Shown here: positions 1-48,913 of the stretch, piece by piece | Layout of the letters: the number at the start of each line of letters is the position of its first letter | Position numbering within the stretch: the stretch's first letter is position 1 | DNA from: Spartinivicinus marinus | Lineage (GTDB): Bacteria; Pseudomonadota; Gammaproteobacteria; Pseudomonadales; Zooshikellaceae | Reading direction: 5' to 3' | NCBI RefSeq assembly: GCF_026309355.1 | Contig: NZ_JAPJZK010000002.1 | Coordinates: forward strand, 1 to 64,000 | DNA: 64,000 bases | Position numbers and translations under genes: made by a program | Notes under the pieces: model-generated | Told to the model about the DNA's origin: nothing | What the model saw: only the letters and a program-made list of their open reading frames with translations | Database searches by the model: none

Positions 1-1
1 T

Positions 2-1555
2 GGTTATCGAATTGAGTTAGGGGAGATAGAAAATGTATTACTATCTCATCCTGAGATTGATGAATGTACTGTTAGTCTAACCACAGAAGTAAACAAATCT
101 ATTGCAAAAGAAGACCTGCAATTCTGTGTGAAATGTGGGATTGCTTCCAACTATCCGAATACGGTATTTTCTGAAGAAATGGTGTGTAGCCATTGTAGTG
201 CATTTGAGAAGTATCGCGATGTTGCAGAAGCTTATTTCAGTGATATGCAGAAGCTACAGAAAATCGTAGATAAAATGTGTAGTGAAAACCATCCAAAGTA
301 TGATTGTATCGTGTCACTCAGTGGTGGTAAGGATAGTACCTATGCGCTTTGCAAAATAAAGGATATGGGCGCTCGGGTGTTGGCCTTTACTTTGGACAAT
401 GGATATATTTCCGAGAGAGCGAAGGATAATATCAATAGAACGGCTGAACGCTTGGGGATAGAGCATCGTTATATTTCTACGACCCATATGAACGAGATAT
501 TTGTCGATAGTTTGCAGCGTCATAGTGATGTGTGTAACGGGTGCTTCAAGACTATTTACACGATGGCGATCAATCTGGCGCTAGAAGTTGGTGTTAAGTA
601 TATCGTTACTGGTTTGTCCAAAGGACAGCTATTTGAGACGCGTTTGTCCGAACTCTTCCGAATGGAGACTTTTGATGAAAAGGTTTTTGATAAAAATCTT
701 ATTCAGGCTAGAAAGGTCTACCATCGTGTTGAGGATTCCGCTAATTGTTTATTAGAGAATGATTGGGTTGACGATGACGACGTGTTGGAAAATATACGTT
801 TCGTAGATTTTTTCCGTTATAGCAACGTCTTACGTAATGATATGTATGGGTACATTGAAGATAGGGTGGGTTGGGTCAGACCTCCCGATACAGGTAGGTC
901 GACGAACTGTCTTCTAAACGACGTTGCGATATATGTCCACGGTAAGGAGCGTGGCTACCATAAGTATTCGCTTCCATATAGTTGGGATGTGCGTATGGGG
1001 CATATAGAGAAGGGGGATGCGTTACGTGAAATTGATGACTCTGCAGAGATTGATGAAGCCAAAGTTAGCTCGATTTTGAACGATCTTGGTTACGAAGTTC
1101 GAGATGAAACTCTTGGCGTGGGGGATGCACAAATCGTTGCTTACTATAAGTCCGATGTTGAAATTCCTGTCGCGAGAGTGGATGAGTATATGGCAGAAGC
1201 ACTTCCTGAATACATGGTGCCTTCACATTTTATCCGGTTGGAAAAAATGCCACTTACTCCAAATGGTAAGCTTAATAGGCAGGCGTTGCCAAGGCCAAAT
1301 GATTATAGAAAGAATTTTGCTGAGAGTTATGTGGCACCGCGAAACGAGTTGGAGGAGAAGCTTGCTGAGCTGTGGAAGGAAGTGCTAATGGTAGATAAAG
1401 TAGGTATCGAAGACAATTTCTTCGAAATCGGTGGTAATTCTCTTCCTGCTTTGATGCTGTTGTTTAAGGTTGATTCTCAATACAACAAACTCATCAGTAT
1501 CCAGGAGTTTTCTGAAGATCCAACAATTAAAGCGTTGTCTTCAATATTGCAATAA
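2..1555 (+). CDS. NRPS A-PCP protein with PP-loop ATPase inserted in the A domain (AlbIV-like), 5'-partial
   Basis: The frame is already open at base 2, so the N-terminal A subdomain lies outside the window. Bases 2-31 encode the A8 motif GYRIELGEIE. About 30 residues later a different domain begins: a CxxCG...CSHC zinc-ribbon pattern (125-200), the PP-loop SGGKDST (about 319-342) and a CNGC pair (about 535-546), as in WbpG-type amidotransferase/AANH-superfamily ATP pyrophosphatases. It ends near 1010, where the A domain resumes, with the A10 lysine in PNGKL (about 1260-1275) and a PCP with phosphopantetheine serine in GGNSL (about 1430-1445). The protein is thus an interrupted A domain (insertion between A8 and A9) plus PCP, with no TE. 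QueC/ToyM, also PP-loop enzymes, turn carboxylate or amide into nitrile using ATP, so an Asn-to-cyanoalanine step is a reasonable inference. I recall albicidin AlbIV as a comparable A-PCP protein. It is followed 65 bp later by the exporter gene. Confidence 0.88.
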   Translation, partial: GYRIELGEIENVLLSHPEIDECTVSLTTEVNKSIAKEDLQFCVKCGIASNYPNTVFSEEMVCSHCSAFEKYRDVAEAYFSDMQKLQKIVDKMCSENHPKYDCIVSLSGGKDSTYALCKIKDMGARVLAFTLDNGYISERAKDNINRTAERLGIEHRYISTTHMNEIFVDSLQRHSDVCNGCFKTIYTMAINLALEVGVKYIVTGLSKGQLFETRLSELFRMETFDEKVFDKNLIQARKVYHRVEDSANCLLENDWVDDDDVLENIRFVDFFRYSNVLRNDMYGYIEDRVGWVRPPDTGRSTNCLLNDVAIYVHGKERGYHKYSLPYSWDVRMGHIEKGDALREIDDSAEIDEAKVSSILNDLGYEVRDETLGVGDAQIVAYYKSDVEIPVARVDEYMAEALPEYMVPSHFIRLEKMPLTPNGKLNRQALPRPNDYRKNFAESYVAPRNELEEKLAELWKEVLMVDKVGIEDNFFEIGGNSLPALMLLFKVDSQYNKLISIQEFSEDPTIKALSSILQ

Positions 1556-1619
1556 CTTTGTGCAAAAAGACAAAATCATTTGACGATGCCATATATAGGG
1601 TGAAGTAGGTTTGAATAAT

Positions 1620-3119
1620 ATGAACGAAATGAAAATACAGGGGGCTGTTCCACCGCCGGATCAAAATTTTGCATACCCGCACCGTTGGGCGGCAATGTTC
1701 ACTTTGTTAGCCGCAAATTTTATGGTGTTTCTGGATGTAAATATTGTACTGGTAGCTATACCGAGTATCCAAAGTAGCCTGCAAGCAAATATGATGCAAA
1801 TGGAGTGGGTTGTTGCTGTATATATTGCCTGTTATGCCCTGGCTTTGTTGCCGTTAGGAAAGCTGGGTGATCTGTATGGGAGAAAGAAACTGTTTGCTAG
1901 CGGAGTTGCGGGGTTTATTGTTTCTTCTTTTCTTTGTGGCGCATCCACTACAGTTGAAATGTTGATATTCTCACGAATATTGCAAGCTGTTTCAGCGGCG
2001 ATGATCTCTCCTCAGGTGATGGCAGTTGCAACATCAATGTTTTCGCCAAAAGAGAGGTCAGCTTCTTTCGCTCTATTTGGTTTGGTGGCTGGATTGGCAG
2101 CAATTGTAGGGCCCGTTGTTAGTGGTGCACTGATTAAGGTGAACCCCTTCGATTTTGGATGGCGATCTATTTTCTATATTAATATCCCGATTGGATTGGC
2201 TGTTTTATTTGTAGCTTTGTACCGAGTGCCGAATACGGCTTCATATGCCGGTGAGCGCAAGAAGAATGACTGGTTAGGTGTTTTGTTGGTTGGTATTGCT
2301 TTACTAAGCTTGATATTTCCCCTGATTGAGGGGCGTGCTTATGGTTGGCCTTTATGGTGCTTTTTACTTATGGCCGCGTTCATTCCTATAATTTCAGTAT
2401 TTATTGGGCGGTCAATAAAACTGGCAAAGGAAAATAAGCCAACACTATTGCCAATATACCTAATGGCTAATCGCAATTATATGTTTGGTGCAATAGCAGT
2501 GATGGGATTCTTTTCTGCTTTGGAAGGGTTCTTACTGATCTTTGTGATTTTTTTGCAGCAAGGTCATGAATTCACCCCAATGCAAACAGGTATGGCAACT
2601 GTTCCATTTTCGATAGGGGTGTTAGTAGCAACAGTTATTGCGGCGCGTTTTCAAAATTTGAAAGTCAAGATTTTTTCCGGAGCTACATTGTGCTTCGTTT
2701 CCACTATTGTGCTTTGGTTTGTGGTAAATAATGTTGAAGATCTAGGCGCAAAGGGCTTGATGTTGCCGCTTCTAATTGGCGGTTTGGGTTCCGGGGTGAC
2801 CATTGCTTCACTGTTTCAGACTGTTATGCGAACGGTGCCTCTTAAAGATACGGGTGCGGGATCAGGTGCTTTACAAGCTATGCAGCAGGTTGGTGGTGCT
2901 TTGGGTATAGCCTTGGTGTCCCAGATATTTTTCTCTGGTTTCTTGAATGATGCGCAGAGTGTAGAAATTTTTAATGCTTCTTTTAAAGATGTATTGGTTT
3001 ACTGTATGGCAGCTTATGTATTTGTTGTGTTTGCTGTTTTTGGTGTGGATTTTAAATTGCCGTCGAAGAACGAGCCTCAGCGGCCGCCTGTAAATATGCC
3101 CTTGGAAGAGGGCAGTTAG
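1620..3119 (+). CDS. MFS drug:H+ antiporter, DHA2 (EmrB/QacA) type, likely product exporter
   Basis: About 499 residues with roughly 14 hydrophobic segments, the length and topology of the DHA2 branch. The loop 2-3 signature reads GKLGDLYGRKK, and a motif-C-like GPVVSGAL stretch is present near residue 165. An in-frame TTG at 1611 is possible, but the purine-rich AAGTAGG at 1603-1609 is better spaced from ATG 1620. It follows the A-PCP gene on the same strand after 65 bp and is probably co-transcribed. Albicidin producers carry an exporter of this type (AlbF) for self-protection; here it most likely pumps out the cluster product. The substrate is inferred from context only. Confidence 0.88.
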   Translation: MNEMKIQGAVPPPDQNFAYPHRWAAMFTLLAANFMVFLDVNIVLVAIPSIQSSLQANMMQMEWVVAVYIACYALALLPLGKLGDLYGRKKLFASGVAGFIVSSFLCGASTTVEMLIFSRILQAVSAAMISPQVMAVATSMFSPKERSASFALFGLVAGLAAIVGPVVSGALIKVNPFDFGWRSIFYINIPIGLAVLFVALYRVPNTASYAGERKKNDWLGVLLVGIALLSLIFPLIEGRAYGWPLWCFLLMAAFIPIISVFIGRSIKLAKENKPTLLPIYLMANRNYMFGAIAVMGFFSALEGFLLIFVIFLQQGHEFTPMQTGMATVPFSIGVLVATVIAARFQNLKVKIFSGATLCFVSTIVLWFVVNNVEDLGAKGLMLPLLIGGLGSGVTIASLFQTVMRTVPLKDTGAGSGALQAMQQVGGALGIALVSQIFFSGFLNDAQSVEIFNASFKDVLVYCMAAYVFVVFAVFGVDFKLPSKNEPQRPPVNMPLEEGS

Positions 3120-3127
3120 TTTTTTGT

Positions 3128-3634
3128 TTAGAAAATTATTGTTGGGAATTTTTCGGTGATAACACCAAATAACTCTTTTGAGTTATACAATTGGTAAGTT
3201 CTAGAAAGGATCTCCGTATTTGGCTCTAAACCAAAGTGCGAAGCAGTTGTTTCGCACTTTTCCAGACGAATATCGATAACTTCTTTAAATATTTCCAAAC
3301 GCTCTTCTTTCCATAAAAGACCAATAGGGGTTTCGGTGTGAAGCAGCTTGTGTTTCATTGTTTTGGATAATTTGTTGATAAGAAAAGAAGACTCAGCAAA
3401 AATGTAGTTTTTGGATGAGTCTGTTAGCATGACTTCTCTGTTTAGTAGTGTGGAATCTTTTGATTGAGATGATGAATCTCCTGGAAGTTTTCCTTTTTCA
3501 ATAGATTGAAAAATTACTTTTGCTTGAATACTTTGGTTTGTATAAAGGGAGAGTAATTCAGTGATGGATCCGTCAGTAGTAAGTAAAATCTTCTGGAATA
3601 GGCTTAGTGATGGGTTGGCGATAATCTTGTCCAT
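3128..3634 (-). CDS. Chorismate lyase family protein (UbiC/DUF98-like), 4-hydroxybenzoate supply
   Basis: 168 residues. Family traits visible are an N-terminal LLTTDGSITELL segment, an LNREVML strand (near residue 65), an AESS segment near residue 80 and the PIGLLW turn near residue 103. These fit the single-domain chorismate lyase fold, which removes pyruvate from chorismate to give 4-hydroxybenzoate. The start is well placed: GGAG lies 6 bases upstream of ATG at 3634. The gene is convergent with the exporter, the two stops being 9 bases apart. Four-hydroxybenzoate fits as starter for the PKS, or as substrate of the CoA-ligase-like protein at 20931-24065. A housekeeping ubiquinone role is less likely given the location. 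Confidence 0.75.
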   Translation of the reverse strand: MDKIIANPSLSLFQKILLTTDGSITELLSLYTNQSIQAKVIFQSIEKGKLPGDSSSQSKDSTLLNREVMLTDSSKNYIFAESSFLINKLSKTMKHKLLHTETPIGLLWKEERLEIFKEVIDIRLEKCETTASHFGLEPNTEILSRTYQLYNSKELFGVITEKFPTIIF

Positions 3635-4834: not shown

Positions 4835-4994
4835 GTTGAAAGAGGCTTCACTTTATAAAGTAAAATTGCATGCGGCTAGTGGGTGGTTCGATCTGCGCTT
4901 ACCTTTTTTACTATCATTTTTTGTGTAAAATTTTGTAATATTCCAATATATAGATACTTATTAACAATAAACCCTATTTTAGAGAGAGAAACAT

Positions 4995-5936
4995 ATGCAC
5001 AACACCAGTGCCAAAGACGACACTCCCTTAATTATCAATGGCCATCAGGAATCATTGGAACAGTGGGCAGACAACAACAAGCAAATTATCACAAACAAAT
5101 TAATCCAACATAAAGCAGTACTCTTTCGCAACTTCAGCAATAGAGAGGGACTAAACAGCATTTCAAAATGTTTTTTTTCCGAACTACTAGACTATAACTA
5201 CAGATCCACGTCTCGTACATTGCTGAGCGAGAACGTCTATACATCAACGGAATACCCACAAAACCTGACAATTCAACAACATTGCGAAAACTCTTACCAG
5301 ACAAACTGGCCCCTAAAATTACTATTTCATTGCGTCACCCCTGCCACTAAAGGAGGGCAAACACCTATCTGTGACATGATCAATGTGACAGAGGCCATTG
5401 ATAATGAAATAAAACGAGAGTTCGAACAAAAAAAGGTAATGTATGTCCGAAACTTTCGAAAAGGCGCCGACCTGCCATGGCAAGAAGTTTTTAACACGAC
5501 CGAAAAAGCACACGTCGAAGCCTACTGCCAATCTCATAACATTGAATTCCAATGGATAGGCGACGACCTAAAAACCCGCCACATAAGCCAGGCCACCGCA
5601 ACACACCCCATAACACAACAAAAAATTTGGTTTAATCAAGCACATCTCTTTCATATCACAGCTTGGGAAAAGCCTTACAGACAGGTACTTTTGTCTCACT
5701 TCACAGAAGAAGGCCTTCCCCGAAATACCTACTTTGGCGACGGCAGCCCCATCCCTCCCGAAACACTCGATCATATACGATCTGCGTTTGACCAAAACAT
5801 CACTTTCTTCGACTGGGAAAAAGACGATGTACTACTTTTAGATAATATGCTGGTCTCTCACGGACGAACCCCTTACGAAGGAGATAGAAAGGTCACCGTC
5901 TGCATGACGGAAGCATATTCTCCACAAGATAACTAA
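4995..5936 (+). CDS. Fe(II)/2-oxoglutarate-dependent hydroxylase, TauD/SyrP-like
   Basis: 313 residues. The iron-binding pattern is visible as HxE in QQHCENSY (about residue 95) and the distal His in SHGRTPY (about residue 292), followed by the Arg of EGDRKV that binds 2-oxoglutarate. The HxE version and the GGQTPICD stretch place it with SyrP-type NRPS-associated hydroxylases, which beta-hydroxylate carrier-bound Asp or Asn. AlbVIII of albicidin is, from memory, in this family. The likely substrate here is the Asn-derived residue of the middle NRPS module (inference). AGAGAGAGAA lies just upstream of ATG 4995. It is a lone plus-strand gene with 160 bp of AT-rich leader between it and an IS remnant. 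Confidence 0.85.
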   Translation: MHNTSAKDDTPLIINGHQESLEQWADNNKQIITNKLIQHKAVLFRNFSNREGLNSISKCFFSELLDYNYRSTSRTLLSENVYTSTEYPQNLTIQQHCENSYQTNWPLKLLFHCVTPATKGGQTPICDMINVTEAIDNEIKREFEQKKVMYVRNFRKGADLPWQEVFNTTEKAHVEAYCQSHNIEFQWIGDDLKTRHISQATATHPITQQKIWFNQAHLFHITAWEKPYRQVLLSHFTEEGLPRNTYFGDGSPIPPETLDHIRSAFDQNITFFDWEKDDVLLLDNMLVSHGRTPYEGDRKVTVCMTEAYSPQDN

Positions 5937-5945: not shown

Positions 5946-6755
5946 TCAGGCAGGCACGCCCCTCTCTTTTGTGCCTGCCAAACTCTCATTCAACTGCAAC
6001 AATACTATATCAATCACCGCTTGCTGATTTGTATGTATATAGAAGTGCCCGCCAGCCAGCTCGTAAGTAGAAAATTCCCCCACGACCAAATCAGACCAAC
6101 GGTCAACATTATCAACAAGCCCATCATCAGAGCCGAACAAGATACTCACAGCACATTCGATTTGTTCCCCGCCCTTCCTGTAGCGATAACTCTCACCTAA
6201 TCGGAAATCAGCCCTCAATCTTGGAATAAGGTAGTCAATTAATCCTTCATCTTTTAGTACCGCCTCAGGCGTCCCTCCCATTTCTTTAATTTCTTGTACA
6301 AACTCATGTTTTTCCAAATGACTAATTTTTTTTCTTGTCAAATCTAGATGAGCAGGAGACCTAGCAGAGATAAATAGATGTATATGATTGCTTTTTTGCT
6401 TATCACTCATCCTTCCCACCAATACATAACTGATCAACCCTCCATTGCTGTGACCAAAAAATGCAAAATTAACATTTAGCATTGGTGAGATCACGCTATA
6501 TAACCGCGCAACCATTTCGTCACAGCAACTAATGAGAGGCTCAGTATTTCCTCCTCTTCCAGGGTACTGAACACCCACAACCTCTACCCCATCAGGCATA
6601 TTTAACGCCCAATCTCGATATATATTGGCATCCCCTCCAGCATAAGGAAAACAAAATATTCTGATTCGCACCTTTTCCTGCGGATTGAAGATAACAAACC
6701 AGGGAGAGGTCTTTACTGCAGGTCGACGCTTGAAAAAAATATCTTTTTTAGACAT
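5946..6755 (-). CDS. Type II (editing) thioesterase, GrsT-like
   Basis: About 269 residues of alpha/beta hydrolase fold. The nucleophile elbow is GHSNGG (Ser near residue 103), a plausible Asp lies in GSDDGL and the His in GGHFYIH. The N-terminal FCFPYAGG signature is typical of NRPS/PKS type II thioesterases, which remove wrong acyl groups from carrier proteins. It is directly downstream of the aminodeoxychorismate synthase gene, whose stop is 12 bases before this ATG, so the two are one operon. A TTG at 6767 is an alternative start. AlbXI would be the albicidin counterpart by role. Confidence 0.85.
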   Translation of the reverse strand: MSKKDIFFKRRPAVKTSPWFVIFNPQEKVRIRIFCFPYAGGDANIYRDWALNMPDGVEVVGVQYPGRGGNTEPLISCCDEMVARLYSVISPMLNVNFAFFGHSNGGLISYVLVGRMSDKQKSNHIHLFISARSPAHLDLTRKKISHLEKHEFVQEIKEMGGTPEAVLKDEGLIDYLIPRLRADFRLGESYRYRKGGEQIECAVSILFGSDDGLVDNVDRWSDLVVGEFSTYELAGGHFYIHTNQQAVIDIVLLQLNESLAGTKERGVPA

Positions 6756-6767
6756 TCCTAAAACCAA

Positions 6768-8909
6768 TCAAACCAAATCCACTTCACTTCCCAGCTGTTT
6801 TAAACAAGCAGATACCGAAAGATTTTTATCTACTACACTATATTCGTAGGGCGTTCCAAGCTCAGACAAATATTGCCATATAGGTTTCAACACAGCCTCT
6901 GCTTTTAAGATAATTTCCTCATACTCGCTGCTTGGATCAGAAAGATAGGTAATTGCACCACCAGCACCGAATTTAATTGTTTGCCCATCATAAGAAAGCG
7001 TTCTGATTGCAATATTAAGATCTGCAATCCGGTTGTAGCCAAGGTAACCAATGGTTCCGCAATACACTCCTCTTGAGTCCTGCTCCAATTGATCAATAAT
7101 TTCCATCGAACGATATTTAGGGGCACCTGTAATTGAGCCTCCAGGATACACCGCTTTAAGCAATTCCACCAATGTACACTCTGACTTCAAATATGACTCT
7201 ACGGTACTAACCATCTGGTGCACGGTTTGGTAACTTTCAATATCCATCATCTTGGACACAATAACACTACCAGGCACTGAAACTCGGCCAAGATCATTCC
7301 GCATTAGATCCACAATCATCAGATTTTCAGCTTGATCCTTTTCCGATGCAGCCAAAACCCTTGCATTTTCAGCATCAGTTGCTGGGTCTTCAGATCGAGC
7401 ACAAGTACCTTTAATTGGTTTGGTTTCAACCCGACCATTCTCATCAACTTTCAAGAAACGCTCTGGGGAAGTACTTAAAATTCTAACTTTACCAATACTA
7501 ATCAGCGCACCAAAAGGGGCTGGGTTTTCTTTTCGCATAATCATGTAAAGCTCTACAGGGTCGAGCTCTATATCACACGAAAATTGATTCGTTAAGCAAA
7601 TTTCATACGACTCACCATCAACAATTTTTTCTTTACTCTTTTCAATGGCATCCAGATAACACTCTCGACTCATATCCATATCGATACTGGCTTGCTCTAT
7701 TCCTAATCCCTGGCCAGCGGATGCATCAACACTTACCAACCTAAGCTGCTCTTCCATTTCATCAATCCAGGCATCAGCCTTCGCTTGCTCCTCTTTCGTC
7801 GCAGCATATACCAACCAAACTGACTTATCTAAATGATCAAACGCAACAAATTTCTCCACCCTCATCCAAACCGCATCAGGTATCTTATTTCTATGACGCG
7901 TCTCGGCGCCAAAAAGTGTCTTCATCTCATAAGACATATAACCTACATAACCACCACGAAACTCAAACGGTAAGTCCTCATGACTTGCAACATCTACAGC
8001 CTCCAACGCACACTCCAGGTTTTTGAGAAATGCTAGACCACCAGAAAAATCTTCGGAGTCTTCTGTAATTTTGTACGTCAACACATCTTCCGGAATTACC
8101 TTTCCCATGAAAGAAAAACGAGACATCCCCCTCCTAACGGATTGACTGTCCAACCAAAAACTATTTCGCTCTTCAGCGAACATAGAGCGGAAAACCTGCT
8201 CATCTGATACAGGGATATCCACTTTTCGGAAAAATAATTGTTTCTTCACTTTGGACCGTCGAGCTATCTCCTTAGACACTGAAACAGGGGATTTTTTAGT
8301 ATCGCTTTCCTCTATATTGGCGTGCTTATATGACAGTAACTTAAAGTTTTCGACCAATTGCATACCATATTCAGTCAGAATTGATTCTGGATGAAACTGC
8401 ACGCCCCACTTGGGTAAGAACTTGTGCTCAACCCCCATTATCAATCCACACTCGGAACGTGCTGTGACGTTCAAGTCTTTAGGCACTGTATCAGCAGCCA
8501 CAACAAGAGAGTGGTACCGAACAGCTTCAAAAGTATTAGGAAGCTCCTTAAACAAACCAACATTATCGTTATGGACAATATTGGACTTTCGACCATGATA
8601 AGGAACTGGTGCATGAACTATCTCACCACCATATATATGCGAGAGCCCTTGAAAACCGAGACACACCCCAAGCACCGGAATATCATTTTGCTCCAACGCT
8701 TGACGACTGACACGAAAATCACTCGCATTAGTCACTGAGCCCGGACCAGGTGACACAATAATGGAACCGAACTCGCCAAGCTGCTGAATCTCGTCCCACG
8801 TATATTGATCATTATGTATTACTAAAGGCTCATTACCATATATTTGTGCAACATAATCAGCCAAGTTCCAAGTAAACGAATCGTAATTATCGATAATGAG
8901 GCAACGCAT
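6768..8909 (-). CDS. pabAB: Fused aminodeoxychorismate synthase (PabA-PabB)
   Basis: 713 residues. The N-terminal part is a class I glutamine amidotransferase with nucleophile Cys in GVCLGFQG and the FHPES His/Glu pair. The C-terminal part is a chorismate-binding domain with PIKGTCAR, where the Lys is typical of PabB rather than TrpE (which has PIAGT), and a GGSITGAPK signature. It converts chorismate plus Gln to 4-amino-4-deoxychorismate, the pABA precursor. The frame stays open to 8999, but ATG 8909, giving the family N-terminus MRCLIIDNYDSF with GGGAGG 3-8 bases upstream, is the start; the extra upstream codons run towards an IS end. Two nearly identical pABA-type A domains in the NRPS explain the need. 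The lyase partner is at 18955. Confidence 0.93.
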   Translation of the reverse strand: MRCLIIDNYDSFTWNLADYVAQIYGNEPLVIHNDQYTWDEIQQLGEFGSIIVSPGPGSVTNASDFRVSRQALEQNDIPVLGVCLGFQGLSHIYGGEIVHAPVPYHGRKSNIVHNDNVGLFKELPNTFEAVRYHSLVVAADTVPKDLNVTARSECGLIMGVEHKFLPKWGVQFHPESILTEYGMQLVENFKLLSYKHANIEESDTKKSPVSVSKEIARRSKVKKQLFFRKVDIPVSDEQVFRSMFAEERNSFWLDSQSVRRGMSRFSFMGKVIPEDVLTYKITEDSEDFSGGLAFLKNLECALEAVDVASHEDLPFEFRGGYVGYMSYEMKTLFGAETRHRNKIPDAVWMRVEKFVAFDHLDKSVWLVYAATKEEQAKADAWIDEMEEQLRLVSVDASAGQGLGIEQASIDMDMSRECYLDAIEKSKEKIVDGESYEICLTNQFSCDIELDPVELYMIMRKENPAPFGALISIGKVRILSTSPERFLKVDENGRVETKPIKGTCARSEDPATDAENARVLAASEKDQAENLMIVDLMRNDLGRVSVPGSVIVSKMMDIESYQTVHQMVSTVESYLKSECTLVELLKAVYPGGSITGAPKYRSMEIIDQLEQDSRGVYCGTIGYLGYNRIADLNIAIRTLSYDGQTIKFGAGGAITYLSDPSSEYEEIILKAEAVLKPIWQYLSELGTPYEYSVVDKNLSVSACLKQLGSEVDLV

Positions 8910-8987
8910 ACGCCTCCCTTTAAACAAAAAAGCGTTAGTCATCATGCAAAATGTATATTTTTTAAGGTATGTATTTTTACTCACCAA

Positions 8988-9211
8988 TGTTGTGGTCAAG
9001 TAAACTTGTACAACATTACGTACAGTTAATTTAATAACTCTTTAGCTGCAGGTGTTAAGTAGCCATTGTAACTATGAACACGACAATGGTTGTAATATTT
9101 AATGAACTGCATAATATCTTTTTCAGATTCTTGGTAGTTTTTGTAAAAAGTAGATGGCATCCACTCAACTTTATAACTTCTAAGAAAACGTTCTGTTGGG
9201 GCATTGTCCCT
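8988..9211 (-). mobile_element. IS3-family remnant (end plus OrfB C-terminus)
   Basis: It begins with the terminal sequence TGTTGTGGTCAAGTAAAC at 8988, also seen at 11340, and encodes on the minus strand the C-terminal end of an IS3-type OrfB (RDNAPTERF...YYNHCRVHSYNG...). It is cut at 9211 by the IS6 copy that follows. Bases 9026-9211 are the coding remnant. No functional transposase remains. Confidence 0.8.
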
Positions 9212-10128: not shown

Positions 10129-10731
10129 ATGGAAGATTTGACATCTAAACAATTCGAGTACGAAGATCAAACTTTTGAAAAAATCGAATTACAAGATCAA
10201 ACACTTTCAGGCAAAGTTTTTTATGATTGCATTTTTATTAATTGCAATTTCAACAGTACAGCTTTTGACAAGTGTAAATTTAACGACTGTGAGTTTAAAA
10301 ACTGCAACCTAAGCACAATAAGTGTAAATGGAACCAGCTTTCGAGATGTAAAATTTAAGGATTGCAAGATGATAGGGATCAACTGGACTAGCGCAGCGTG
10401 GCCCAGTGTTCAAATATCCAGCCCAGTCGAGTTTGATGGATGCAGATTAGATAATTCAATATTTTTCGGGTTATATTTGCAAGAAATCAAAATGGAGGCA
10501 TGCCAAGTTCATGACGTCAACTTTACAGAAGCAGACTGTGAACATGCCAGCTTTATTCAATCGGATTTTTCAAATAGTGTCTTCCACAACACCAATTTAA
10601 GCAATTGTGATTTTTTTGATGCACTGAATTACACTATAGACGTTTTTGAAAATAAAATAAGCCGTGCAAAATTCAGTTTACCTGAGGCCAACAGCCTTCT
10701 CGACGGCCTGGATATTGAAGTCTATCAATAA
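10129..10731 (+). CDS. Pentapeptide-repeat gyrase-protection protein (AlbG/McbG-like)
   Basis: 200 residues built largely of A(D/N)LXX-type pentapeptides, for example FINCNF, FDKCKF, FKNCNL, FRDVKF and FIQSDF, interrupted near residues 95-105 by a loop (WTSAAWPS). This right-handed beta-helix mimics DNA in MfpA/Qnr/McbG/AlbG and protects gyrase from inhibitors. The length and break agree with AlbG, which I recall as 200 residues and as albicidin self-resistance. Its presence predicts that the cluster product hits DNA gyrase. It is transcribed with the following thioesterase gene (28-base gap), and both are bracketed by IS6 remnants, so resistance could move as a unit. Confidence 0.88.
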   Translation: MEDLTSKQFEYEDQTFEKIELQDQTLSGKVFYDCIFINCNFNSTAFDKCKFNDCEFKNCNLSTISVNGTSFRDVKFKDCKMIGINWTSAAWPSVQISSPVEFDGCRLDNSIFFGLYLQEIKMEACQVHDVNFTEADCEHASFIQSDFSNSVFHNTNLSNCDFFDALNYTIDVFENKISRAKFSLPEANSLLDGLDIEVYQ

Positions 10732-10759: not shown

Positions 10760-11185
10760 GTGACATCTCCTATCTGGACAACACCAAAAACCCTAGAAGA
10801 GCTCAATGAGTTTTCTAAAAACACACTACACGAACACCTTGGGATCGAGTTTATCGATATGGGTGATAATTACCTGAAAGCGAAAATGCCTGTGGATGCC
10901 AGAACCCTCCAGCCCCACGGTATACTTCACGGGGGGGCGTCTGTTGTACTGGCAGAAACAACTGGCAGTATTGCATCAGAAATGTGTGTCGATCATGACA
11001 AACGGTGCATTGGACTCGACATCAATGCCAATCACATACGTAAAGTCAGCTCAGGCTATGTATACTGCACGGCCCGCCCGGCACACATGGGGCAAACAAC
11101 ACAGGTTTGGCTGCTTGATATTACTAACGAACAAGGGAAAATGATTTGCCACTCTCGCCTGACCATGATGATCCAGCCTCAGTAA
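10760..11185 (+). CDS. Hotdog-fold acyl-CoA thioesterase (PaaI/MenI-like)
   Basis: 141 residues. The hotdog signature is LQPHGILHGGASVVLAE, with the His-Gly-Gly turn and a downstream acidic catalytic residue (Glu in LAETTGS), as in MenI/YdiI and arylthioesterases. It hydrolyses acyl- or aryl-CoA thioesters. The start is GTG at 10760; no better in-frame ATG precedes the conserved region. It lies 28 bases after the pentapeptide gene. In this setting benzoyl- or hydroxybenzoyl-CoA products of the CoA-ligase-like enzyme are likely substrates (inference). A housekeeping clearance role cannot be excluded. Confidence 0.82.
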   Translation: MTSPIWTTPKTLEELNEFSKNTLHEHLGIEFIDMGDNYLKAKMPVDARTLQPHGILHGGASVVLAETTGSIASEMCVDHDKRCIGLDINANHIRKVSSGYVYCTARPAHMGQTTQVWLLDITNEQGKMICHSRLTMMIQPQ

Positions 11186-11824: not shown

Positions 11825-12628
11825 CTATGTTTTAACAGCTTTAACTAAAAAGCTCTGAGGAACACCCGGAATGCCTCTTGGCGCGAGAGGAAAAGGCCAA
11901 CGGTTAAGTTTATGTCCCATGGCTGCAATTGTACAAACATCTACGTCCCAACCCAACGGTTCTACAATCCTCTCCGGCTCGTCAGTTCCAAATTGTTGAG
12001 CCATATCATGAAGCACTTTCGCATTGGGAGAATTTAGCATTGAAAGACCAATAACATCAAAGAGGCAAATACTACCTTTGGCACTTAACTCACTGACTCT
12101 CGAAAACAATAACTTTACGTACTCTTCCTTCAAGTAACACAACAATCCTTCAATTACCCACACTGTTGGAATTTCTGTATCGAATCCGATCTTTTTCAAT
12201 TCTGCTGGCCAGTCTAATTCCAAATTCATAGCCAATGGAATATATTCACACTTTGATACTACGTGCTCTAACTTTGTGTTTTTATGATCTAACACATTTT
12301 CATAATCAACTTCAAAATATCGAGTATTTCGTGGTAACTCAAGCCTATACACCCTCGCATCCATTCCTGCCGCAAGACTAACAACCTGAAACATACCATT
12401 TTTAGCTGCCAAAGTAATTTCATCGTCTAACCAACGAGTTCGAACTTGAATCGCAGGAGGCATCACCTTTTCATTCGTTGCTGTACTACGCAGTTCATCG
12501 ATAAAACTATCATCATCAACTAGCAGTTGAGCAAACGGATCATGAAAAAGAGGATTTTCACCCTCAGATTCAACCGCTCTCATCCCTGCCACCCACAAGG
12601 CTGTTCTCTCTATACTACCCATTGACAC
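11825..12628 (-). CDS. SAM-dependent methyltransferase, PPM1/TcmP type
   Basis: 267 residues. The family N-terminus RTALWVAGMRAVES and an SLAAGMDARVYRL glycine motif (about residue 85), then a FEVDYENVLDHK acidic loop, mark the leucine-carboxyl-methyltransferase/TcmP superfamily, common in secondary metabolism as O-methyltransferases. AGGAG lies nine bases before GTG 12628, so GTG is preferred over the ATG six bases later. The next gene on the same strand (BoxB-like, ending upstream at 12796) suggests paired ring hydroxylation and O-methylation, such as the methoxy group on albicidin's terminal aminobenzoates, but the substrate is unproven. Confidence 0.85.
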   Translation of the reverse strand: MSMGSIERTALWVAGMRAVESEGENPLFHDPFAQLLVDDDSFIDELRSTATNEKVMPPAIQVRTRWLDDEITLAAKNGMFQVVSLAAGMDARVYRLELPRNTRYFEVDYENVLDHKNTKLEHVVSKCEYIPLAMNLELDWPAELKKIGFDTEIPTVWVIEGLLCYLKEEYVKLLFSRVSELSAKGSICLFDVIGLSMLNSPNAKVLHDMAQQFGTDEPERIVEPLGWDVDVCTIAAMGHKLNRWPFPLAPRGIPGVPQSFLVKAVKT

Positions 12629-12795: not shown

Positions 12796-14154
12796 CTAAT
12801 CTTTCTTTTCTTCCACTAACTTCCGCAAACTATAGCCTAAAGGAGAGATCCAGGACGCATACTTTTCGACCTCTAACGTCTGCACCATTATAGCTTTTAC
12901 CATTTCATAATCTTTTTCCGTGGGCAACCAATCACTCACTTTTCTACTATCTCCCTCAGGCATTATATTTCCTTCAACATCATATGGAAGCCTTTTACAT
13001 GGCCCCGTATTCCTATTAAAACGTTCATGAGGAATAGAAAACTGAAAATCTAGTTTAAGCTCTGCCAGAGACCTGTTCCATTTATCAATTACTCGGCCAA
13101 TTTCTTCGATATACTGACTTCGCATAATACAATTCAATACCTTACCACCCTCAATCTCCACCTGCTCGACACGGTCATTCTTGCGACGATCAATGACAAA
13201 CATACTGTTTTCATATACATCAAGATCTCTTGGCGTTCGAATACCAATCTGATACATATTGTTTGCTGTATTCGACTCGTCATTACCAAATAGATCCAAT
13301 ACTCTAGGTACCCAATAATTTATATACTTCTGAATCACAGGCAAAGGAATTGCAACATGCTCAAAGATATCAAAACTCCCACTTTCTAAAGTGAGCTTTG
13401 CGCTTTTATATAATGTTCTATCGAGTCCACTAACCCCCATATTAATATGAAGAGGCTCCTCAAAAAGCATAAATCTCGATGCTCTAGCTAAAGGCGCAAA
13501 GGCGGCTTGCGTTACTGCTTGTAATTGATACTTCCCATCTCTATCAGCAAGAAAAAGCCACATAAAATGAGACAACCAATCATCAGTGGTGAAATTAAAA
13601 GCATCCAATAAACGAGGGTTATTCTCATCTCCACACATGCGATCCAACAATGCCTCAGACTCAACCAAACCATCATGACCAAAATGTTCAAGTAGTATGT
13701 GCACCATTGCCCACGAATGTCTTCCTTCCTCGAGCAAAAACTGAAAAAGATTATTCAAATCATAAAAGCTGGGCGCCATTTGAAGTAACAACTGCCCTTG
13801 CTCTACACCACCATTTTCAACATCTGCTTGAACTCTAATATGATGCAATAGATAGCTGTAGTAGTCTGTAGGCACTGTCTCCCAAAGCGCCTCACCTTTA
13901 TGAATACCATGCTGAATCGAGTCATGTCTACATGGAGCCATATATAACCCCCAACAATATTCCGAAGGCCGTATTTTTACAGTTTTATACCAACGTCCTT
14001 TAGTTGACCCGTTTGGAATTCGCAATGTCATTGGTACATCAAGAAACTCCGTTGGACCTCTTAATTTCCACCAACTTTTAAAATCTGCCTGGTAGTGCTC
14101 AAGTTGCATTTTCAGTGGCTTGTTTTCTTCAAGTCCTACATTGTTTGGTATCAT
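12796..14154 (-). CDS. BoxB-like di-iron aromatic oxygenase
   Basis: 452 residues, close to BoxB, the oxygenase subunit of benzoyl-CoA 2,3-epoxidase. A ferritin-like ligand segment EEGRHSWAMVHILLEHFG (Glu and ExxH) is visible near residue 145, and the C-terminal FNRNTGPCKRLPYD region also fits the family. No BoxA reductase or BoxC is nearby, so a catabolic benzoate route is unlikely. Aromatic hydroxylation of a CoA- or carrier-bound (amino)benzoate is inferred. The frame extends to 14217, but the first 21 codons read into the IS6 end; ATG 14154 with AAAGAGAA upstream is the start. The IS6 end lies only 50 bases upstream and has probably replaced the native promoter. Confidence 0.8.
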   Translation of the reverse strand: MIPNNVGLEENKPLKMQLEHYQADFKSWWKLRGPTEFLDVPMTLRIPNGSTKGRWYKTVKIRPSEYCWGLYMAPCRHDSIQHGIHKGEALWETVPTDYYSYLLHHIRVQADVENGGVEQGQLLLQMAPSFYDLNNLFQFLLEEGRHSWAMVHILLEHFGHDGLVESEALLDRMCGDENNPRLLDAFNFTTDDWLSHFMWLFLADRDGKYQLQAVTQAAFAPLARASRFMLFEEPLHINMGVSGLDRTLYKSAKLTLESGSFDIFEHVAIPLPVIQKYINYWVPRVLDLFGNDESNTANNMYQIGIRTPRDLDVYENSMFVIDRRKNDRVEQVEIEGGKVLNCIMRSQYIEEIGRVIDKWNRSLAELKLDFQFSIPHERFNRNTGPCKRLPYDVEGNIMPEGDSRKVSDWLPTEKDYEMVKAIMVQTLEVEKYASWISPLGYSLRKLVEEKKD

Positions 14155-14204
14155 AAGTAATATTCTCTTTATATTATCGTAAGCGCTGATCGAAGTACCT
14201 ACTT

Positions 14205-15301: not shown

Positions 15302-15527
15302 TTACCAACGAAAAGCGCAGAAGAGCTAGCCTCTTCTGGGTCTGGAGGGTGTAATGCAAAGCCTGTGAAGTCCAGTGCTTAGGTTTGTGTGTTCGGTGGT
15401 GCTGGTAATTGACAAGTAAGTTATATATCCGGCAGAATGCAATGGTTTTTTATTTGTTAGTAAATGAAGCGTTGATAAAAATATACTTTTTTTGAAGTTA
15501 AAATTGAATAGGGTTGTGGTGTTGATT

Positions 15528-18935: not shown

Positions 18936-18954
18936 ATAAAAAGAAGGAATGTTG

Positions 18955-33400: not shown

Positions 33401-36400
33401 CTCTACCGCAAGCGGTGTCTTGCCTGACAACACCTTATCAATAAACAGTACCTTCTGCTCATCAACAGGCAAATTGTCTACCACGTCTGAACTCGTCAGA
33501 ATAACCTCTAGTTCAGACTCAAATAGAATGTGGTAAACCTGGTCTGGAGCTGTGTCACTATCTATAGCAACATAAGCGCCACCAGCTTTTAGTATGCCTA
33601 ACGCACCTATTAACAGATCTGCTGAATGCTTGACATGCAGTGCAACAAGCGTGTCTTTTTTGACTCCCTGAGACACCAGATAACTGGCGACACGATCCAC
33701 TTTTTCACCTAGCTCTGCATAGCACATTGGCACATCTCCCCCAATAGCTACTTGAGACGGGGTCACATGTACGAACTGCTCATACAAATCCAGTACAGTG
33801 GCAGCATCCTCCGTCAAAGTCTCTGGAATGGAGCGATCAAGAAACAGATCTCTTTCCGCCTGTGTAAGCAGTGACAACTGATCAATTGAGGTGTTCGGTT
33901 TTTTGCAGACAGACTCCAACAAAACGGTTAAGTGAGTCATTAGGCTCTGAATGTAACCTTCACTAAACAAACTCGTGGCATATTCAATAAAACCGGATAT
34001 ACCATGACTTGTTTCAGTCAAATCAATAGTGATTTCAAATTTGGCGGTACCATTGTGCGCCATAACTGGTGTTACATCTAATCCTTCCAAGACCAAATCT
34101 GTATTTGGCGTATTCTGATAATTGAACATCACTTGAATAAACGGAGATCGTGCGGTATCCCTCTCTATATTGAAGTGATCAACGATTTTCTCGAAAGGAA
34201 CGTCTTGATGTTCGTATGCATCCAATGTTGTTCGCTTTATATCACAAAGCAACTCCGCAAAACTTGGAGACTCGCCTAAACGCACCCTCATAACTAACGT
34301 ATTCACGAATAGACCAATTAAGTCATGCAGCTCGGCATGATGACGATTGGCAATTGGACTACCAATACAAATATCTTTTTGTCCCGAGTAACGAGACAAT
34401 ACAATACTGAAAGCAGCTAATATCACCATGTATGCAGTGGAACCGGTTTCACTACACAATGACTTAATTTTTTGCACTAACGCCTGGTCTAAACAAAAAT
34501 CAACAATGGCACCATCAAAATTCTGGAAAGGTGGACGCTCATAGGTAGTAGGCAAAACAAGCGCTTCAGCGTCCTTAAGCTGTTGCTCCCAATAAGGTAA
34601 TTTTTTCGCGAACGCATCTCCCTCAAATAGCTCTCTTTCCCAATGAGCATAATCAGAATACTGTATTGCCATTGGTAAAAGCGGATTCTGCCCACCTTTT
34701 ACCAGTGCGGAGTAGCTCTTTGAGACTTCTTGCAGGAGCACAGATGATGACCATCCATCAAAAACGATATGATGAATGACAACCGACATATAGTGTGTCG
34801 TCTCATCCAATTTATATAGTGCAGCTCTAATTAGCAGATCCTTTTCCAAATCGAAAGGACGCACCGTTTCAACAGCTAAAATTTCATCGAGCTGAGCTTT
34901 GCTTTCAACGGGAATCACAGGCATTTCAAAGCGTTCTGCACTTCCAACATGCTGTAATATTGACTGCTCTTCGTCGATAAAATTGCTTCTCAATACTCGG
35001 TGTCGCTCAATAACCATTCGGAATGATTCTGTCAAAGCCTCAACATTTACCTCTCCCTTAAGCAACGCCATCCCCGGCGTATTGTATGGGGCTCCCTCCA
35101 CAAAATTATGCAGGAACCACATTCGCTCTTGCGCAAATGTCAAAGGCAAAGAAGAATCACTGGTAACACTTACTATCGCTTTATGTTCAACTTCCCCATC
35201 TAGCATTTCAATGTATTCTGCCAGCGAACTCACTTCAGGATTACCAAACAACACACTAAGAGGAATGTCGACAGACAATTCCTGATGAACCCTCGATATC
35301 AACTGTGTCGCCAGTAGTGAATGTCCACCAAGATTAAAGAAGTTATCCCGTACACCCACTTTCTCTATATGCAAAATCTCACTGAATATCGCGGCCAACG
35401 ATACTTCCGTTTCATTACGTGGCGCAACATATTCTTCACCATTTTCCGATGTATCCGGAGCCGGTAATCCCTTACGATCCAACTTACCATTAGGCAATTT
35501 CGGTAACGATTCCAACACCGTATATAAACTCGGCTGCATATACGTCGGTAGTTTCTCCGACAAATGTGTACGCAACTGATCAAGATCCACCACACCCTGC
35601 GATGCCACTACATATGCCACCAACTGCGCATTTTGTGTTGTCGGTGGCCAACTGCTCACCACAGCTTGCGCAACGGATGCGTGACCATTAAGCGCACTTT
35701 CTACCTGACGTACATCAATACGGTGACCACGCACTTTAATTTCAAAATCCTGACGTCCTAGATATTCCAAACTGCCATCTGCCAGGTAACGTACCATGTC
35801 ACCCGTTTTGTACATCCGCGCGCCTGGACGCGAGCTATACGGGTTGGCAATAAAACGCTCGGCTGTTAATCCCGGCTGCTGCCAGTAACCTCGCGCCATA
35901 CCAACACTGTCGACATACAGCTCACCCATGACCCCTATCGGCACCTGACGCAGATGCTCATCCAACACATAGACCTGGGTATTGTGAATCGGATAACCGA
36001 TCGGCACGAAGGCATTCTCATCAACGCTTGCGTGTGTAGCACTAACCTCGTAATAACTAACGTCATTCATCTCGGTGCACCCGTAGTTATTCCATAACGT
36101 CACCTCTGGCAAACTTTCCAGCACTTGATCACGAATGCTTTGTGTCAGCGCCTCACCGGCGGTGACGATACAATTCAAAGATTGCAACTCTCGCGTATCA
36201 TCGAGTAAGGAAGCCAAATGTGAGGGCACTAAAAACAGGCGACTCACCTGCCAGCGTGCAATGATTTGCTTCAACGCTACCGCATCTTTGACAAGCTGAT
36301 CAGCCACCATAACTTGTGCCGCCCCTGCCAACAGACCACTGAGCAGCTCTTTCACTGATACCGCAAAAGCAATCGGCGTTTTTTGCAACACAACATCAGT

Positions 36401-39400
36401 GGCTGCAAAAGGTGTTCGCTCCCATGAGGCATGTAACCAATTTAAGATTTGATGATGAGGTACCATCACGCCTTTGGGTTTACCCGTGGAACCTGAGGTG
36501 TACATCACACAAGCTAACTGCTGGGCCGCCAAAGGCTGGTGAATATCAATATCACCTGGCTGTGCATTCACTTCCGGGTTATCCAGATCCAACCAGGGGT
36601 GAACCTGAGGAACGGCCGGCAGCTTTGCCTGTTGTTCGGCCTTACACAGAATTAACCCTGGTGTCACATCATCAATGATCTGCTCCAGATAGTCTTTCGG
36701 ATACGCGGGATCCATCGGTACGTAACAGCCGCCCGCTTTAAACACCGCTAACAAACCTATCAGTAATTCCTGGGAACGATCACTGAAGATACCCACCGGC
36801 ATCTCGTTCACCACACCAGCCGCCAGTAGTTGCGCCGCCAACTGGTTAGCACGTGCATTCACCTCGGCAAAACGCATCTGCCTCTCATCACTCCCAAGCT
36901 CGCTGACACTGATACAAGCGATGGCTTCGGGCTGACGGGCAACCTGCTGCTCAAACAGGTCGATCAGACTAGTATCACGGCTCATCATTCGCGAGGTATC
37001 GTTGAACCGCGAAAATAGCTTGCTCTCATGACGTGTTAATACTGCGCAATCTAACAGTCGTGCCTGCGGTGTACTTACCAGTTGTTCCAGCACTTGCTGG
37101 TGATGCTTGATAAACCGTCTGACCGTCGCTTCGCTAAACAGGTCTGCAGCATATTCCAAGGAGACTTCCAGGTAACTGCCGTCACCAAAGAACTGCCAAT
37201 CCAGTTCACTCGGTGTGGTTCGGTCACCACCCAATTCTGTGCGCTTCACATGTACGCCATCAGACCATTCCACAATTTCTGACATTGGGAAGTTCTGGTG
37301 ACGTAACATCACCGGTACCAGTGGAATCTGGCTACTATCACGTTGCATCCTCAATTCGTTGAGTAAGTGCTCAAACGGCAATGCCTGGTGGTCAAAGCCG
37401 CCCAGTACCATTTGACGTGTACGCTGCAGCACTTGCTCCAGACTCGGGTTGCCCGACAGATCCAAACGAATCGGTAAAATATTGATGAAAAATCCAATCA
37501 GACTTTCCAGTTCTATTTGGTCACGCCCTGCTACTGTGGTTCCGATAGACAGATCTTCTCGTCCAGTGTAACGTCCCATGATGACAGCCAAACTGGCCAG
37601 CAACGTCATAAATAAGGTGCTTTGTTGGGACTGACTGTAAGTGGCTAGTTTCCTGGCCAACGACTCGGGATAGCTGTACTGGATCATTGCCGCCCGCCAG
37701 GCTCGACCAGCCGTACGCGGGTAATCGTATGGCATGTTCAACCCATCTTCATACCCATCCAGCGATTCTTTCCAGTAACTCAAATGGGCATCCAGGTTCT
37801 GCTCGCGCTGCCATACCGCGTAGTCCCCATAGTGGATATTTAGAGCGGGCAGTTGTGCACTCTCCCCTCGCAACCGCGCTTCGTACAACGCTTGCAAGTC
37901 TTCGATCACAACCCCTTGCGACCAACCATCTGAGATGATGTGGTGAATATTTGTGATGAGTACGTAGTATTCCGGTGAAATACGTAAAATAGTGACGGTG
38001 ATCAGCGGACCATTGACCAAGTCAAACACATAATGGGTGTTTTCATCGATCTTTCCCTGAATCTCATCTTCACTGACATCCAGTACCGGAATGTCCAGCA
38101 CCATACCTTCTTGAATCACTTGTTGAGGTTCGCCACCCTGGGTCAGTACTTTAAAACTGGTGCGTAACGCTTCATGCCTGGCGACAAGATCATTAAAAGC
38201 ACCACACATGGCATCGATAGAAAAGCGCTCGCCTTGGAAATGAACAGCTGTAGTGATGTTATAGCTGGTACGCTGATCTTCCATGTACTCATGGACAAAC
38301 CAGAGACGCTCTTGTGCATACCCCAAAGGAATGACTTGGCTGCGATCAGCAACCTCAATGACTGAAAGTTCACTGCCATCACCGGACGCCTGTAACTCAT
38401 CAATCTTCTGCGCCATCTCTTGTAAGACTGGTGACTGCAATAATTCCACAACAGGATATTCAACACGGAATTGCACCCTAACCCTGGAAATCATCTGCAA
38501 AGCCAGCAGTGAGTTGCCACCGAGACTAAAGAAACTATCCTGTAAACCAATAGGTTGATGAGTCAGAAGGCTTTGCCACAATTGACATAACTTTTTCTCA
38601 GTGTCAGTAACCGGAGCCTCATAAACCTGTTTAGCCTGCACTTGTTGTTGCAGCTGCGGTATATTTTTTTGCGTAGTATCTACAACAATGACATCACGCT
38701 GAACAGTTTGAGAGGATGTTACCTGCCAAAAGCGACTACTCTTTGAAAACGGGTAAGTTGGCAAACTGATACGACGAGGCCGTTGCAGCTGATAAAGTTT
38801 TTGCCAGTCAAGATCAAGACCTTTACACCATAAATCCAGTAATTTATCGAACTTTTTCTTTTTCAGCCACAGATCAATGGTCATAACCATATCTTCATCT
38901 GCAGCAATCATTTCAATAGTTTTGTCAGACCCGACGGAACCAGAATATACCCCACCCTCTACAACATTTTGCAAATAAGCATTGAGTTTATCCTTAAGTG
39001 ATTGAATTGAGCTAACAACAAAAGCAGCTCTATGACTCATTCCTTCACGGCCCACCTGCAAAGTGTATGCTAGACTTAGTAGATCTTTCTCAACGAAGTT
39101 ACTCTTGTCCAACCAAGCAAACAATTGGTATGCTTTTGCACGAAGTGCTTCATCGTTTTTTGCTGAAAGTATGACAGCCACAGGACTATCGAAAACCGCA
39201 GTCTCTTCAATGGGATGAAACTCTTCAACAACAATATGAGCATTTGCACCGCCAGCACCATAGGAGGATATACCCGCCCTTAAAGGAAACTCCTCTTCGG
39301 CACCATTGAAATTTAATACCGGACGTTGCCAAGACGCATTTTTTTGCTGAACTTTAAAAGCACCAGAAGAAAAGTCGATATAAGTATTCGTTTTCTCGGC

Positions 39401-48913: not shown

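Follow-up and report, generated by a model that had tools for sequence, protein, structure and literature searches.

Genes and domains of the cluster

The window analysed here, a stretch of 64,000 nucleotides from Spartinivicinus marinus, corresponds to bases 1-64000 of C2 (NZ_JAPJZK010000002.1), a contig of 176,068 bp in a genome of 6.88 Mb that was assembled into four contigs and is 99.8% complete. What lies here is very likely a plasmid-borne, albicidin-type hybrid cluster of polyketide synthase (PKS) and nonribosomal peptide synthetase (NRPS) genes, which is about 60 kb long and spans the junction of the closed 176-kb C2. The albicidin-type assignment was made because the A-domain signature and tree, the AMDH tree, the gene matches and the match of a pentapeptide-repeat protein to PDB 2xt2 agree, and the same lines of evidence concur with the sequence-only reading, which had proposed a new member of the albicidin family in a non-Xanthomonas genome rich in insertion sequences (IS). 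The synthetase genes are as follows (coordinates prefixed with C2 are those of the contig; pABA, p-aminobenzoic acid):

27413-48925, minus strand: AlbI-type megasynthase, one uninterrupted frame of 7,170 codons, with its start at TTG 48925 or at the in-frame ATG 48913
28884-31972, minus strand: megasynthase module 3 (C-A-PCP), a copy of an exact 3,089-bp repeat, with the pABA signature at 29924-29961
35307-38395, minus strand: megasynthase module 1 (C-A-PCP), the other copy of this 3,089-bp repeat, with the pABA signature at 36347-36384
2-1555, plus strand: back piece of a stand-alone A-AMDH-PCP gene (AlbIV/CysH type), with the end of the A domain, the PP-loop AMDH insert and a PCP
C2:174,789-176,066: front half of the A-AMDH-PCP gene, an A-domain fragment running off the far end of C2
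C2:165,897-171,785, minus strand: terminal NRPS, A-PCP-C-A-PCP-TE, 1,962 aa, found by searching the genome itself with the A1 domain

A giant AL-...-KS-PCP-C-A-PCP megasynthase had been described from the letters alone, and the uninterrupted frame, the Pfam domains and the carrier motifs bear this out; the end point given for it, 48913, is the in-frame ATG, and the frame itself reaches 48925. When the protein was scanned against Pfam in two parts sharing 100 residues, an AL domain, two KS domains, a PS-DH, a KR, a methyltransferase, four C domains and three NRPS A domains were found, and eight carrier sites were located by motif (residues 623, 2515, 2626, 2731, 3468, 4532, 5609 and 6673), three of them in tandem. 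The domain order is thus AL-ACP-KS-DH-KR-MT-ACPx3-KS-PCP-C-A1-PCP-C-A2(dead)-PCP-C-A3-PCP-C. An acyltransferase domain was not reported in the Pfam scan of the megasynthase, and malonyl loading should therefore come from outside.

The A domains of the megasynthase had been credited with codes close to those for pABA. For both active ones, A1 and A3, this was found to be the case, since each matches exactly the DNA signature of pABA A domains that was published with lapcin (PMC8837603). What had been overlooked is that the second A domain, A2, is dead as judged by its core motifs, which are degenerate (YSVGNSGDVVG versus YTSGSTGKPKG, so that the A-domain core motif called A3 is missing; DGSVNK versus NGKLDR, with the A10 Lys gone). 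The exact signature occurs four times on C2 (A1, A3 and the two terminal-NRPS A domains, A4 and A5), and the specificity codes are AVKFVANDV for A1 and A3, AIKYFSIDM for A4 and AVKYTANDT for A5. The pABA-type A domains of C2 also carry Ala235, a feature of albicidin/cystobactamid-type clusters. When 26 A domains were placed in a quick tree with Shimodaira-Hasegawa-like approximate likelihood ratio test (SH-aLRT) support, the six pABA-type A domains, four from C2 and two from a myxobacterial metagenome-assembled genome (MAG) whose terminal A domains both have the code AIKYFSIDV, form one branch (SH-aLRT 100) apart from 14 A domains of the host chromosome. In the same tree, A2 clusters with the dead A domain of the Xanthomonas albilineans locus, L067 (support 99, both branches long). 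The terminal NRPS had been considered missing, but it is present on the same contig outside the window, and it is 44% identical to the MAG protein over 1,993 columns. The host chromosome contains two more large NRPS loci, at C1:4030496-4044475 (4,660 aa) and from C1:5754775 onward (8,732 plus 3,203 aa).

The back piece of the A-AMDH-PCP protein matched QueC, AMP-binding_C, PP-binding and NAD_synthase in Pfam, as well as a model for N-acetyl sugar amidotransferase (E 7e-40, under the model's cut-off). The front and back pieces are 53% and 59% identical to L067 (6402-7601 and 7605-9149, respectively) and 56% and 58% identical to the MAG protein. The code of the stand-alone A domain was read by eye as DLTKIGEVG, and the same code was computed for loci L066, L067 and L068; we take it to be an asparagine code, an assumption consistent with PMC7966384. 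In a tree of 85 AMDH rows, in which the locus L065 has a very long branch, the sequences of the window, X. albilineans and the Myxococcales MAG make up a clade of three (SH-aLRT 100). A phylogenetic placement away from AlbI had been named beforehand as one outcome that would refute the assignment; run on two domains, the AMDH domain and the dead A domain, the test gave the opposite, as both the AMDH domain (SH-aLRT 100) and the dead A domain (99, long branches) group with X. albilineans.

The AMDH domains, aligned from window positions 77-1126 and 84 loci, conserve a Zn-type tetracysteine and a LarE-like CxxC-C triad, the latter in all 85 aligned rows (L065 excluded). The model of the AMDH is most similar to N-acetyl sugar amidotransferase, followed by LarE and further PP-loop enzymes. 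These cysteines hint at an Fe-S cluster, and the triad could be tested as an explanation for both the brown colour and the mechanism of the nitrile- and isoAsn-forming AMDH domain, which is known to dehydrate or isomerise (PMC7966384).

Other cluster genes and repeated modules

The neighbours named in the sequence-only reading (PabAB, PabC, pentapeptide protein, SyrP-like oxygenase, TcmP-type methyltransferase, MbtH, MFS exporter, BoxB and lyase) were all present by profile scans:

1611-3119, plus strand: DHA2/EmrB-type MFS exporter, probably for efflux of the product (MFS_1 E 8e-44; efflux_EmrB E 4e-57, under cut-off)
3128-3634, minus strand: chorismate pyruvate-lyase, Rv2949c-like, the probable source of 4-hydroxybenzoate for the starter (PF01947 E 2e-20)
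4995-5936, plus strand: TauD/SyrP-type oxygenase (CysJ/AlbVIII type), probably for beta-hydroxylation of carrier-bound Asn (PF02668 E 7e-41)
5946-6767, minus strand: type II thioesterase (PF00975 E 6e-38; 42% in the MAG cluster)
6768-8999, minus strand: PabAB fusion, aminodeoxychorismate synthase for pABA supply (Chorismate_bind, GATase; pabB TIGR00553 over cut-off)
10129-10731, plus strand: AlbG-type pentapeptide-repeat protein, probably for gyrase immunity (phmmer match to PDB 2xt2)
10760-11185, plus strand: 4HBT-family thioesterase, AlbIII-like, probably for release of hydroxylated pABA-CoA (PF03061 E 2e-15)
11825-12628, minus strand: LCM/TcmP-type O-methyltransferase (PF04072 E 6e-44; TIGR00027 over cut-off)
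12796-14217, minus strand: BoxB-type di-iron oxygenase (CysC type), probably for 2,3-oxygenation of pABA-CoA (benzo_boxB E 1e-112, under cut-off)
15492-15740, plus strand: MbtH-like protein (PF03621 E 7e-21), the 3' end of whose frame enters an IS end
18009-18935, plus strand: alpha/beta hydrolase of the PAF-acetylhydrolase type (PF03403 E 3e-13)
18949-19647, plus strand: PabC-type aminodeoxychorismate lyase (PF01063 E 6e-20, the best stretch covering model positions 133-215 of 223)
20931-24065, minus strand: benzoate-CoA-ligase-type enzyme, probably in the role of CysL, with an orphan N-terminal region of 550 residues (AMP-binding E 2e-55, residues 561-904)

A shuttle hydrolase and one O-methyltransferase are located, together with the terminal NRPS and the AlbIV-type front piece, within C2:164,690-176,068, and the carbamoyltransferase of the genome sits on C1, not on C2. 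The names AlbII, AlbIII and AlbG and some of the Cys letters are assignments that we assume.

The pentapeptide protein had been called AlbG-like, and when it was searched against PDB with phmmer its residues 8-198 matched 2xt2 (E 9.5e-68) and the variant 2xt4 (1e-60), the next match being Qnr (1e-10). PDB names the molecule of 2xt2 McbG-like protein, and we take it to be AlbG. The BoxB-type protein at 12796-14217 had no match in the Pfam scan; it matched the benzoyl-CoA oxygenase structure 3per (E 1e-94) and is 50% identical to the BoxB of the MAG cluster. Among the differences from albicidin listed earlier, the built-in DH, the methyltransferase and the three tandem ACPs were seen, but BoxB is a feature of the family (CysC, MAG) and the lyase fits the albicidin starter. 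For cystobactamid, production was reported to be lost when the BoxB homologue cysC was deleted, and CoA-bound pABA is the substrate that CysC was assumed to oxidise (PMC7966384). The role of the TauD/SyrP-type oxygenase in Asn beta-hydroxylation was taken from the same paper. The CoA ligase matched TIGR02262 (E 6e-84, under cut-off), and at usable E-values its N-terminal 550 residues (window 22416-24065) brought up no relatives from Pfam, PDB or PLSDB, nor from 397 other genomes of the phylum. Furthermore, the final residues of PabC come from an IS end, the repeated end being at 19546-19567.

Comparison with reference clusters, which had been proposed as a check, gave gene matches to both the X. 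albilineans locus and the myxobacterial MAG. When 19 query proteins were compared with 18.7 kb of an X. albilineans contig (L067, part of its cluster) and with the MAG stretches, seven matched in the former, including the O-methyltransferase (61%), the 4HBT thioesterase (55%, L067 5866-6276) and the AlbIV-type protein (53-59%). L067 appears disturbed at a repeat (the match shifts frame at ~3970), and the AlbI domain count of L067 was left unused. The MAG cluster holds ten counterparts to C2 cluster genes, in the order MbtH, shuttle hydrolase (44%), BoxB (50%), PabAB (pieces at 70% and 48%), thioesterase (42%), O-methyltransferase (60%), terminal NRPS (44%), A-AMDH-PCP (56-58%), PabC-type (by Pfam only) and TauD (54%), an order that is presumably that of the cys genes. 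L067 and L068 came from a scan of genome contigs, of which the best 80 of 375 confirmed loci were considered, so that known cystobactamid producers may be absent and we make no claim that the cluster is unique; among these 80, the pABA DNA signature occurred only at L068, in the stretch examined, and L067 had none.

The stretches of the MAG, PMG_095 of the Myxococcales (L153 15955-20000 with L068 3-14088), hold a cystobactamid-like cluster that reaches the contig end.

It is hardly credible that this is an ordinary NRPS-PKS resembling albicidin by chance, a view to which the degenerate A2 and the further large NRPS genes of the host might lead, because four exact pABA signatures, the AMDH clade of three, the 2xt2 match and BoxB co-occur, and this contradicts it.

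The two copies of the exact 3,089-bp repeat, in modules 1 and 3, have a third-position GC content (GC3) of 0.51, versus 0.37-0.39 in the rest of the gene. When windows along the megasynthase gene were grouped by identity to a paralogue, GC3 was 0.521 in 18 windows with a paralogue at 85% or above versus 0.375 in 50 windows below 60%, and for the chromosomal 8,732-aa NRPS frame (C1:5754775 onward; L156, L157) the values were 0.559 (25 windows) and 0.343 (48 windows). Across 121 non-overlapping windows from five frames, GC3 was correlated with paralogue identity (Spearman 0.42, p 2e-6); three frames that lack near-identical modules, one of which is truncated, had no significant GC3 trend (-0.22, 0.14 and 0.45; p 0.32, 0.36 and 0.06). 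The raised GC3 in duplicated modules looks like the pattern expected from GC-biased gene conversion between modules. Alternatively, it could result from import of GC-richer modules. It is also possible that the exact repeat may be an assembly copy error.

The replicon and the distribution of the cluster

The cluster does not end at base 1 of the window; it continues over the junction of C2. The sequence-only reading had missed this closure, and also that base 1 cuts the AlbIV-type gene and that BoxB is typical of the family. Both ends of C2 fall in this one A-AMDH-PCP gene, and one L067 codon separates the front piece (up to 7601) from the back piece (from 7605), corresponding to two bases at the end of C2 and one at its start. 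Since the pieces join across the C2 ends with an exact one-codon gap, it is very probable that C2 is a circle. Genes for replication, partition and type-IV secretion, as expected of a conjugative plasmid, are all on C2: a Rep3 initiator, ParA, ParB, a ParM-like protein, TraC, TraD, TraG_N and the topoisomerase TopB, in addition to TraU, TrbI, DUF2895, DUF3438 and DUF4400. Because the Rep3 initiator and the partition and secretion genes are present, the plasmid nature of C2 is well supported. The alternative that C2 belongs to the chromosome, or is itself a second chromosome of the chromid kind, would be in keeping with its size, its big NRPS-PKS cluster, its CRISPR-Cas genes and a closure not taken from reads, but the gene set named above, the ends within one gene at a one-codon gap and the size of C1, which alone has 6,443,410 bp, make it very improbable.

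When TraC was searched against PLSDB, 13 of its 15 best matches bore the annotation conjugative transfer ATPase and the other two bore none. Among the PLSDB matches listed for the Rep protein, the best was from a Spartinivicinus ruber plasmid (33%), and 15 kb of IS-rich window DNA matched four PLSDB records by megablast, two S. ruber plasmids (~82%), one from Providencia and one from Proteus. A TraI_2_C match (E 4e-7, over cut-off) was found in a 369-aa frame at C2:68995-70101. The megasynthase DNA had no megablast match among 72,556 PLSDB records, where this genome's own records may be left out. Three PLSDB records covered at least 80% of the length of the AMDH piece, at 40, 40 and 35%, the first two being Rhodobacterales plasmids.

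AMDH sequences on marine Rhodobacterales plasmids (L063 and L064) are located near polysaccharide genes, and on L064 within an annotated NRPS gene.

C2 also carries a complete-looking CRISPR-Cas set at C2:125267-133658, with arrays at C2:124019-125127 and C2:133858-134424 (19 and 7 exact seed copies), which we take to be type I-F from the sizes and sequences of the open reading frames (ORFs). Another cas2-3 frame of type I-F (574 aa; Pfam matches to Cas3_I-F_Cas2 and HD) lies in the window at 52329-55632, where a copy of an IS transposase separates it from a cas1 frame; this cas2-3 frame is about half the length of its counterpart in the complete-looking set.

The surroundings had been described as IS-riddled, and indeed one DDE transposase of 228 aa has seven matches on C2, six of them inside the window, and there are other IS besides. 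We take the element of this transposase to be IS6-like and two further sets in the window to be IS66-like. With such IS, and with pabC and mbtH both running into IS ends at their 3' side, the cluster might be decaying and silent, scattered and with its gene ends cut. However, the large frames are open (7,170, 1,962 and 426+517 codons), and chromosomal copies of pabC or mbtH could serve, and we therefore regard decay as unlikely.

In a survey with the AMDH query of 369 genomes from the class, the host's own included, 52 matched at E 0.001 or better, and besides the own genome only one, G153, had a strong match (50%, E 1e-116; the next was 2e-18). This match is on a contig of 7.7 kb that contains two NRPS frames and on which no pABA signature was found. 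Among 56 relatives, 15 matched and, besides the own genome, only G375 did so strongly (46%); in the two remaining members of the genus and in two members of the family, the AMDH match was absent or weak, at 26-30%. Strong AMDH matches are rare among both sets, and therefore the cluster appears patchy and is probably recent in the host lineage. The X. albilineans genome paper states that XALB1, the albicidin cluster, was acquired by an ancestor (PMC2810307). A literature search on Spartinivicinus, Zooshikella and albicidin with plasmid or transfer gave no plasmid-borne albicidin-type case among the matches listed. A complete cluster on the plasmid of another gammaproteobacterium would mean a further lineage and a concrete transfer vehicle for a rare antibiotic family. 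Gyrase-poison genes with matching immunity on a plasmid would help to explain the presence of this family in unrelated bacteria.

Predicted product and comparison with known systems

The predicted product is methyl-coumaroyl-pABA-(modified Asn)-pABA-pABA*-pABA*. The lyase would provide 4-hydroxybenzoate, which the AL domain would load, and a single cycle of the AT-less PKS, using the KR, the DH and the C-methyltransferase, would give methyl-p-coumaroyl, to which C-A1 would add pABA. Module 2, with its dead A2, would receive Asn that is loaded and dehydrated or otherwise modified by A-AMDH-PCP and carried by the shuttle hydrolase. Albicidin itself has beta-cyanoalanine in position 3; an AMDH domain is present here, but such domains can dehydrate or isomerise. 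C-A3 would then add pABA, and the last C domain together with A-PCP-C-A-PCP-TE would add two pABA-type units, of which one or both would be hydroxylated (by BoxB on the CoA ester) and O-methylated. PabAB and PabC would provide pABA, and the pentapeptide protein and the MFS pump would protect the host. The reactions, the product and its gyrase activity are deduced from protein families, as distinct from the genes, domains, motifs, homology and closure by homology, which were observed.

The AL, KS, DH, KR and MT domains fit the methyl-p-coumaric structure of albicidin, with the PKS part of AlbI outside the comparison. It is quite possible, although we would not expect it, that the product is a distinct poly-aminobenzamide, cystobactamid-like or new, with another linker or terminal ring substitution. 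The A4 code is close to that of both MAG terminal A domains and A5 has AVKYTANDT; the TauD oxygenase and two O-methyltransferases could yield hydroxy- or methoxy-Asn, as in cystobactamid; and the MAG cluster shares the set of BoxB, TE and TauD. In contrast, the AL-PKS front with its DH, KR and MT, and the chorismate lyase, are in line with albicidin and its methyl-p-coumaric starter, and in the tree A2 falls with the dead A domain of X. albilineans, on long branches.

Several points weigh against a plasmid-borne, albicidin-type cluster. The closure of C2 was deduced from homology and from counting bases rather than from sequencing reads that span the junction, and no match to the relaxase domain TraI_2 (PF07514), the one relaxase family searched, was found in the whole genome. 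In the 18.7 kb of X. albilineans DNA, which is part of its cluster, 12 of the 19 queries were unmatched, for instance BoxB, PabAB, TauD, the pentapeptide protein and the lyase, and seven were unmatched in the MAG stretches, the pentapeptide protein again among them. The trees that include X. albilineans cover the AMDH domain and the dead A domain, with the KS/AL half of AlbI outside them, and the A5 code is nearer to plain pABA, so that the last unit may differ from that of albicidin. Finally, the mbtH and pabC frames both terminate in ends of the presumed IS6-like element.

The albicidin-type cluster of C2 shares with XALB1 a dead A domain whose function is supplied by a separate A-AMDH-PCP protein, which in albicidin is complementation in trans by alb04 (PMC8949500) and which has likewise been reported for the dead A domain of cystobactamid (PMC7966384). 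An AlbG-type pentapeptide protein is also common to both, as are a syrP gene within the cluster (PMC3849588) and six building blocks matching the module order of C2 (PMC6078987). XALB1 differs in that it lies on the chromosome, close to the terminus of replication (PMC2810307, PMC3849588), whereas the C2 cluster is plasmid-borne and in another host. The orphan N-terminus of 550 residues on the CoA ligase of C2 may be a further difference. In addition, the GyrA of X. albilineans has a 43-residue insertion (PMC2810307), which the GyrA of the C2 host lacks: this protein (875 aa) has no insertion before its C-terminal tail when compared with the best solved gyrase A, the stretch HPHGDSAVYDTIVR is identical, and it looks ordinary.

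With the cystobactamid-like MAG cluster, C2 has in common MbtH, the shuttle hydrolase, BoxB, PabAB, TE, an O-methyltransferase, A-PCP-C-A-PCP-TE, A-AMDH-PCP, the PabC-type enzyme and TauD. In contrast to the cystobactamid cluster, C2 has an AL-PKS block as its starter, and its genes are scattered by IS. Neither a radical-SAM alkylator (CysS) nor an AurF-type N-oxygenase (CysR) was among the ORFs scanned in general profile scans, in which no model search was aimed at them. The lapcin biosynthetic gene cluster also has the pABA A-domain signature and a dead A domain, for which an isolated Asn module acts in trans, but it has 10 modules, a lipid starter and thiazoles, and no PKS front like that of C2 is described in the available part of its report (PMC8837603).

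On microcin B17 plasmids, the gyrase poison, the pentapeptide immunity protein and export are all plasmid-borne. By analogy, though this appears rather doubtful as a whole, C2 could be a nonribosomal counterpart of such a plasmid, carrying a full gyrase-poison factory, the exporter and the main immunity for a host with a drug-sensitive-looking GyrA; it would act both as a weapon and as a plasmid-addiction module, and would be the vehicle by which albicidin-type clusters reached Xanthomonas and myxobacteria. If this were true, cells without C2 would be killed by sister cells. The comparison is one of analogy only, in that microcin B17 is a ribosomal peptide whereas the C2 system is nonribosomal and pABA-based.
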